From: Victivallis vadensis
Lineage (GTDB): Bacteria; Verrucomicrobiota; Lentisphaeria; Victivallales; Victivallaceae
DNA: 64,000 nt
Direction: 5' to 3'
Assembly (NCBI RefSeq): GCF_003096415.1
Contig: NZ_QEKH01000008.1
Location: 1-64,000 of the forward strand
Shown: piece after piece, positions 45,374-60,290 of the stretch
Layout of the letters: each line of letters begins with the position of its first letter
Position numbering within the stretch: position 1 is the stretch's first letter
Position numbers and translations under genes: made by a program
Notes under the pieces: model-generated
What the model was told of the DNA's origin: nothing
What the model saw: the letters and a program-made list of their open reading frames with translations, nothing else
Databases searched by the model: none

Positions 45374-46092
45374 TCTCGGGGATTTCGCTCCTTTCGGAGC
45401 GAGCAGGGCGCTTCGCCCCTGCACCCCGACCGGCAAGGTGCCGGCGTCGGGTACTTAGATCCGGGAAAGGCGTACCGCCTTTCCCTCCGGGTGGGGGAGG
45501 CTCCGGTAGAGACAGGCGTGGTTGTACAGGAGCGGCACACCGCTCCGGTCGGCGCAAAGCCTGCTTTTTTGCAGGCTTTAGGCACTCCCTACGCCTGCTG
45601 CCGCCGGAGGTCACGCGCGGAACCTCCAGATGCTAACCATGTAACAGACAGATACCCTGATGGAGGCTGATAAGAATTGATCTGCCGATATACGCAAAGC
45701 AAGGTCAGGCAACAATGCAATTGTCATATCACCGGCAAGCATATCTTTGAGTACGAACCTTACCAAACCTTGCCTTTATCATAAGGACAGGTAGAGTTCA
45801 GCCTCCATGAGGGTAATTTCACATCATCCGGTCAGCATCTGGCCGTTCCGTGCGTGACCTCCGGCGGCAGCAGGCGCAGGGAGTGCCTAAAGCCTGCAAA
45901 AAAGCAGGCTTTGCGCCGACCGGAGCGGTGTGCCGCTCAGGTACCCGCTTGCCTGTCCACAGTAGAGTCTCCCCCCTGGAGGGAAAGGCGGTACGCCTTT
46001 CCCGGATCTAAGTACCCGGCACCGGCACCTTGCCGGTCGGGGTGCAGGGGCGAAGCGCCCTGCTCGCTCCGAAAGGAGCGAAATCCCCAAGG
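45374..46092. repeat. Long inverted repeat with roughly 250-bp arms
   Basis: The left arm (45374 to about 45625) is nearly identical to the reverse complement of the right arm (about 45842-46092). Further matching blocks run inward: CCAGATGCT(A/G)ACC near both arm ends and TGATGGAGGCTGA (45658) against TCAGCCTCCATGA (45799). The central 125 bases are AT-richer. Each arm contains its own hairpins, including AAAGCCTGC/GCAGGCTTT, GGGAAAGGCG/CGCCTTTCCC, GAGCGG/CCGCTC and the GGCACCTTGCCGG module. It lies between convergent genes and may act as terminator, but its size points to two inverted copies of one element. Confidence 0.85.
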
Positions 46093-59239: not shown

Positions 59240-59573
59240 GGCGGGAATGCCTCCGGCGGCCGGGGGCGCTTCGTCCCCCCCCGGTTATTACTCACAAGCA
59301 GGGCCAGCTCTATCGGCAGCACTTCGCACCGGCACGTTGCCGGTCGGGGTCAAGGGACGAAGTGCCCTTGTCGTCGAAAACGCTTGTGCGCTACTGCGCC
59401 CAGCTACCGGTGCCTGATTGCAAATCAGGCCGCGTAGCGCACAAGGTCTGCAAACCGCAGGGCTGCAGACCCGCCTGCCGCAAAAGCGGCAGGCTTCCCC
59501 GATTCCCCCAATCAGGCAGCAGGGCTGTAAGCCCCGTCTGCTGAAACAAAGCAACTGAAACCGGAAAAGAACA
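59240..59573 (+). repeat. Hairpin-rich intergenic element related to the inverted-repeat arms
   Basis: This 334-base gap has no gene. At 59326-59375 it matches the arm element at 46019-46068: GCACCGGCAC-TTGCCGG, TCGGGGT, then a CAAGGG/CCCTTG-type hairpin. More dyads follow: CTTGTGCGCTAC/GTAGCGCACAAG (59389-59444), GATTGCAAATC, CTGCAAACCGCAG, and GCCTGCCGC/GCGGCAGGC. The paired nature suggests a structured RNA or an element remnant. Confidence 0.6.
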
Positions 59574-60290
59574 ATGGATCTATTGATAGTTCTGGGAATA
59601 CCTCTGATCGGGGTCGCCTGCGGCATCGCCTTTCTGTGCGGTTTGGCAATCGGGTGGAAATGCTGTTGGCTGTGGCTGCTGCTGGCGGGATTCAGCACAG
59701 TGCCGGTCGGCGGAATCGCCATGCTCGGAGCCTTTCAGGGAGCTTTCAATTCAGAGCCGGTCAACTTGTACCGGACGGATTTCTTCGGATACCTCGCCGA
59801 ACTTCTGGAACGGTCGGAACACCCCGTTCAGGCGGCGAAACAAATGGAAGCGGAAGTCGCCGCCGGAGTATGGGAACGCAAATGCAAAGAGTTCCTGCCG
59901 CCGCAATTGCCGGATGCCGTGCTGTATGTCGGAATTGTCTGCGCCATTGTCGCATTCAGCGCTCTCAAAATGAAAAACAGCTGGAAGCGCACGGCGATCT
60001 GGTTTCCGGCATGGCTGGCGGCGGTGGGGTTGATTTCGGGGTGGCTGTTTTGCGATGTCCGGCACTCCGCCACACGCAGCCATATCCGAATGAGCGACAA
60101 CGGCAGAACCCAACTGCTGGAAGAATTGCCGGCAGTTTTGGAAAAGAGTTCGATTTCCGGCGCGGCGGCCGCCGGAATCGTCCGGAACTACATTCAAGAG
60201 GAGTATCCGAACGTCTGCCACTGCGAACCGGCCAGTATGCTTCTGGCGGAGATTTCTACTGCCGCCGGCGGCGAATCACCCCGGAAATAG
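59574..60290 (+). CDS. Membrane protein of unknown function
   Basis: 238-residue protein with four likely membrane segments: LLIVLGIPLIGVACGIAFLCGLAIG (residues 3-28), WLWLLLAGFSTVPVGGIAML (about 31-52), AVLYVGIVCAIVAFSAL (about 115-131) and IWFPAWLAAVGLISGWLFC (about 141-160). It has soluble loops and a C-terminal domain of about 75 residues. No family is recognised. It follows a hairpin-rich gap, has a GAAAAGAAC site, and ends just before a bidirectional terminator copy. Composition is slightly less GC-rich than neighbouring metabolic genes. Confidence 0.6.
   Translation: MDLLIVLGIPLIGVACGIAFLCGLAIGWKCCWLWLLLAGFSTVPVGGIAMLGAFQGAFNSEPVNLYRTDFFGYLAELLERSEHPVQAAKQMEAEVAAGVWERKCKEFLPPQLPDAVLYVGIVCAIVAFSALKMKNSWKRTAIWFPAWLAAVGLISGWLFCDVRHSATRSHIRMSDNGRTQLLEELPAVLEKSSISGAAAAGIVRNYIQEEYPNVCHCEPASMLLAEISTAAGGESPRK

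Follow-up and report, generated by a model that had tools for sequence, protein, structure and literature searches.

A dispersed palindrome of about 0.7 kb with hairpin-string arms, probably a foldback- and REPIN-like element, in Victivallis vadensis

An inverted repeat of approximately 711 bp fills the gap between two convergent genes in a 64,000-nucleotide stretch of the Victivallis vadensis genome (hereafter, the window), and the same unit recurs at 37 loci in this 5.2-Mb genome. We interpret it as probably a lineage-specific, non-coding and non-autonomous dispersed palindrome, foldback- and REPIN-like in organization, with arms composed of strings of short hairpins flanking an asymmetric core. 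A search of the literature found no description of this palindromic family.

Results

Structure of the element. A preliminary description of this DNA had reported an inverted repeat with nested hairpins, and both are real: the core spans positions 45378–46088, with arms of about 297 bp, and the right arm aligns to the left with 88% identity over 298 columns. Direct searching resolved an outer arm pair (45375–45510/45956–46091, 92% complementarity), a second pair (45493–45638/45830–45975, 87%) and an innermost pair of 18 bp (45653–45670/45798–45815). Homology continues inward in interrupted blocks, as had also been proposed. The predicted RNA fold of the element reaches −615 kcal/mol, compared with −286 ± 7 for shuffled sequences (z = −49.6). 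The sequence shared among copies starts with GGGGATTTCGC (45378) and ends with GCGAAATCCCC (46088), such that the outermost 4 bp on each side of the interval 45374–46092 lie outside it, and the 10-mer GGGATTTCGC is located near both ends (45379–45388, with its complement at 46078–46087). Neither the palindrome as a whole nor its 235-bp centre (45617–45851) has a strand; the left arm (45378–45616, + strand) is a string of short hairpins that is repeated, inverted, in the right arm (45852–46088, − strand). Read inward on the + strand, this string includes H1 (45386–45401; GCTCC-TTTC-GGAGC, with four stem alleles), H2 (45403–45422; GCAGGGCGCTTCGCCCCTGC, with CCAAGGCGCTTCGCCCTTGG as the other allele and compensatory pairs), H3 (45428–45451; beginning GACCGGCAAGGTGCCGG), H4 (45463–45485; GGGAAAGGCG-TAC-CGCCTTTCCC, with ACCG/CGGT as the other allele), a near-invariant block (45530–45553; GAGCGGCACACCGCTCCGGTCGGC) and H9 (45556–45579), a hairpin with a T6 loop and four stem alleles in which the T-run is always on the inward-reading strand (its right-arm counterpart lies at 45889–45912, − strand). 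The outer parts of the centre are diverged blocks that continue the arms, the inner ~130 bp are asymmetric and, as anticipated, the centre is non-coding (no open reading frame of at least 100 amino acids).

Copy number and distribution. Thirty-five of the 37 loci are two-armed and the other two are cut by contig ends (C51 and C64); the total combines arm matches, pattern counts and further loci. Most copies are 690–720 bp long, with forms of ~800 bp in which a ~93-bp unit of the core is doubled in tandem (six copies other than that in the window) and a few that carry insertions, and centre lengths range from 232 to 431 bp. A 307-bp arm query matched 44 places in the host genome, each within a full inverted pair, and every recognized arm away from contig ends is paired; the genome-wide search for single half-units that the preliminary description had proposed thus yielded no solo arm. 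Beyond this genome, no element of comparable length was found in 60 relatives, and searches of 136 other genomes of the order for a conserved 24-mer gave either no occurrence or a single one with 3 mismatches. Plasmid, phage and viral-contig collections, from which the host genome itself may have been left out, gave no match, and a broad scan of genome contigs (again possibly excluding the host genome) with a 19-base core pattern gave six scattered matches in unrelated phyla, which we take as chance. Rfam searches with the element and related loci returned no match, with one sub-threshold match outside the element.

Several other hairpin-rich sequences were encountered alongside the family. 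The H2–H3 block is a common intergenic module, occurring in shorter repeats both in the host genome and in same-genus genomes; within the window, the intergenic interval 59240–59640 contains other hairpin-rich repeats that include this block and a palindrome of the form CTTGTGCGCTACTGCG.../...CGCGTAGCGCACAAG. In three copies (L034, L071 and L072) a hairpin-rich sequence of ~130 bp interrupts the arm at the T6 hairpin, in both arms of L072, and is a repeat nested in a repeat. At another locus (L099, G000 C39:27632), an end with GTGTGCAAGTTTCCTGAA-GGGATTTCGC is followed by a hairpin-rich sequence that is longer and of another kind, which may represent a second class of composite element. A same-genus genome (G005; loci L066 and L213–L221) carries a separate family of ~270–340-bp units, tandem in places, each laid out as a sigma-70-like TTGACC...TTAAAAT followed by several hairpins, with the H2–H3 block last; this family also had no match in Rfam.

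Age of the inverted arrangement. The two arms of an element share on average 86.8% identity, compared with 85.0% for unrelated arms and 84.8 ± 0.65% for randomly paired arms. Because identity to an arm's own partner is so close to identity to unrelated arms, the inverted layout must be older than the dispersal of the copies. From these sequence comparisons, the unit that moves or is inherited is the whole ~711-bp inverted pair, and it is old. The preliminary description, which envisaged two inverted copies of a ~300-bp element, was therefore right that a repeat element occurs elsewhere in the genome and mistaken about its unit, and the recent duplication that it deduced from arm similarity does not hold. 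Some coupling between partner arms does exist, limited to the outer ~50 bp; beyond these, complementarity between partners hardly exceeds that between unrelated arms, which gives no support for selection on the giant stem itself.

Hairpin alleles and their exchange. At the scale of individual hairpins, by comparison, pairing is almost perfectly conserved. An alignment of 64 arms folds as a string of local hairpins in which 99.5% of the cells in stem columns can pair with their partners, and 12 pairs have changed on both sides; when partners were slid by 1–2 columns as a control, pairing fell to 38–49%. The alleles of each hairpin slot are discrete and few in number (GGCG/CGCC versus ACCG/CGGT, or the four stems around the T6 loop), all 64 arms are different combinations of these alleles, and alleles on either side of invariant gaps, of 8, 22 or 24 bp, showed no association. 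Beyond ~25–40 bp, mean r2 declines to the sampling floor, with some neighbouring slots still associated (for example, columns 120–162). The loop of H4 occurs in both orientations across copies (TTC/GAA, 21/10; TTT/AAA, 9/5; GCA/TGC, 5/3; TAC/GTA, 9/1), whereas the T6 loop is never flipped (64 T-runs, 0 A-runs) and neither are the H1 loops, which always read inward with the pyrimidine first. We read these patterns as frequent exchange and template switching confined to single hairpins, the mechanism being our interpretation of the alleles, and as strand-specific constraint on the T-rich loops. Template-switch mutation can maintain hairpin pairing even where the RNA serves no function under selection. 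The gene conversion suggested in the preliminary description is supported in this sense, as a process that involves the whole set of copies and acts on individual hairpins.

Remnants. The 10-mer GGGATTTCGC occurs 178 times, with none for the reversed pattern used as a control, and beyond the 37 elements and chance matches in genes there are about a dozen sites with inward-facing pairs 25–63 bp apart. Five of these remnants match exactly a junction between the beginning of an observed arm and the end of a different one, with an overlap of 4–7 bp, as predicted by deletion between short direct repeats; other remnants need a few additional changes to be decomposed into joined arms. Copies thus seem to collapse to short hairpin remnants via direct-repeat deletion. 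A remnant site in a same-genus genome (L220, on contig C72 of G002) is 98.7% identical over 1,425 bp to a site in the host (L115), with the hairpins of the two differing at several clustered positions. That contig is 12 kb long. As the lysS locus of the same assembly is 82% identical to that of the host genome, the contig probably derives from a conspecific strain, with bin contamination or recent transfer as the probable cause.

Genomic context. The neighbours of the window copy are convergent, as previously noted: an alpha-L-fucosidase gene (PF01120; 44083–45369, + strand) stops 8 bp from the element and a major facilitator superfamily (MFS) transporter gene (PF07690; 46094–47449, or to 47554, − strand) stops 5 bp from it. 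With nothing else between the two stop codons, the transcripts of both genes must either end in the element or cross it. Among 34 copies with a gene context, 25 lie in convergent, 7 in tandem and 2 in divergent gaps (gene calls were made with a home-made codon-usage model trained on the window), whereas in 464 kb of the same genome only 14% of gene pairs are convergent and their gaps hold 12% of intergenic bases (P of about 1 × 10−15 to 4 × 10−15 for 25 of 34 against 14%). Copies are mostly 1–40 bp from a stop codon, and the seven in tandem gaps lie close behind the stop of the upstream gene. This convergent bias fits target bias and purifying selection alike. The left and right flanks of a copy are more complementary to each other than in any of 5,000 permutations, and several copies interrupt, at its loop, a terminator-like palindrome formed by their flanks (around L030, for example, this palindrome is perfect over 27 bp and has the A/T tails typical of bidirectional terminators). 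Clear palindromic flanks are restricted to about 7 of 33 copies, and five of these share the repeated motif GTGTGCAAGTTTC, the palindrome of which may instead be an outer portion of the element.

Searches for mobility genes and hairpin nucleases. No match to the Y1 transposase family (PF01797) was found in the genome, with positive controls, and a RAYT-driven origin was rejected; this search of the Y1 family tied no mover, whether transposase, integrase or other, to the element, and none of the 37 loci is an autonomous copy. Target-site duplications (TSDs) were also lacking (2.2 bp shared between a copy's own flanks, compared with 2.4 bp for permuted flanks). An exact empty site was sought via the lysS locus and none was found, the neighbours of that locus not being syntenic in same-genus genomes. 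A single reverse transcriptase was detected in the host, and it is of retron type (L212, G000 C20:94502–95083; PADLOC RT_III-A), and a retron msr–msd origin was rejected, as this locus has no meaningful similarity to the element. Palindromes with such long arms are normally unstable in bacteria, and sbcCD mutants of Escherichia coli tolerate long palindromes. SbcC was not found in the host genome, whereas the same search scored in each of 14 control genomes, and the sole candidate for SbcD is a sub-threshold phosphoesterase; on this genomic evidence, the main hairpin nuclease, SbcCD, appears to be missing from the host.

Discussion

The element works most like REPINs and foldback transposons, yet is a member of neither. 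As in REPINs and BIMEs (inverted REP doublets associated with RAYT Y1 transposases; PMC3116915), the inverted pair is the dispersed, hairpin-forming unit, and copies are likewise intergenic and multicopy, with compensatory changes and shorter singlet-like remnants. It differs in size (about 711 bp, compared with roughly 100 bp), in having arms of about 240–300 bp that are chains of different hairpins rather than REP units of 20–40 bp, in lacking a cognate RAYT (Y1_Tnp) gene and in its strong bias to convergent gaps. The very long, modular inverted repeats with little or no coding capacity recall the eukaryotic foldback transposons FB, Galileo and Tetris, in which arm segments are exchanged between copies, as seems to occur here (PMC2775673, PMC4079207); those elements, however, have TSDs and a known transposase, whereas the present one has no TSD, no linked transposase and a bacterial host, and shared sequence is not expected. 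We therefore assign it to neither group, as it has no RAYT or REP-sized unit on the one hand, and no TSD or known transposase on the other. Families of bacterial stem-loop sequences (PMC1590033, PMC2267715) are similarly dispersed, intergenic and conserved in their stem-loops, but the present element is a large composite of many stem-loops mirrored around a core.

Bacterial MITEs share with it a short, non-coding, multicopy form with terminal inverted repeats and no open reading frame, and the present element is also intergenic and shorter than 1 kb. It might be an ordinary MITE, derived from an insertion sequence that lost its interior but kept very long terminal inverted repeats, and mobilized by a transposase from another locus of the genome; purifying selection against harm alone could then yield the convergent bias. 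We nevertheless consider this origin unlikely, given that no TSD, parental insertion sequence or autonomous copy was found, that arms of ~300 bp built of hairpins are far longer than, and unlike, insertion sequence ends, and that Y1, the one transposase family searched, gave no match. A selected structured RNA or DNA element, such as a bidirectional terminator or insulator spread and homogenized among convergent genes for its usefulness, is possible, if on balance improbable: the element abuts both stop codons, its local hairpins show compensatory changes, and its T-runs are always inward-reading, with a predicted stem no more than 3 nt away in 44 of 64 arms, but simple scans of the window copy detected neither a terminator nor a promoter consensus, Rfam offered no match, the family is limited to a single species of the order, the majority of convergent pairs in the genome do without it and copies decay to remnants. 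That a collapsed or chimeric repeat was merely assembled as an inverted repeat is highly improbable. The two copies at contig ends do indicate that the repeat broke the assembly in places; mis-assembly is nonetheless disfavoured because about 34 copies lie within contigs between distinct gene pairs and flanks and because the modules of the arms are shuffled even across invariant gaps of 8 bp, a length at which k-mer chimeras cannot arise, and the remnants, including the near-identical site in another assembly, are independent of repeat assembly.

For the foldback- and REPIN-like dispersed palindrome that we favour, we suggest that a mobile-element process placed the copies and that it favours, or that its products survive in, intergenic terminator hairpins. 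Because it would be sited in terminator regions and fold back on itself, such that a split terminator stem can stay paired, the element would be tolerated; in the window it forms the whole 3′ region of both genes and must therefore either end their transcription or be crossed by their transcripts. Replication over the hairpins could lead to template switching and short exchanges between copies, producing a homogenized family with flipped loops, and the apparent absence of SbcCD may allow the long palindromes to persist. A fuller scenario is speculative and rather unlikely in its entirety: a foldback-type element would insert into terminator loops harmlessly, its own palindrome holding the split stem, and, with SbcCD lacking in the host, the ~37 copies would behave as a panmictic population in which template switching exchanges and inverts single hairpins and slippage reduces copies to short terminator-like hairpins.

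Together, these results describe a genome that maintains dozens of long-armed palindromes despite their usual instability in bacteria, and in which SbcCD is not recognizable. Each hairpin slot is a natural record of hairpin copying and exchange in replication, in which the shuffling of alleles can be followed at a resolution of ~10 bp. The family may also represent a case of selfish DNA settling in terminators, and thereby a possible source of raw material for new bidirectional terminators.
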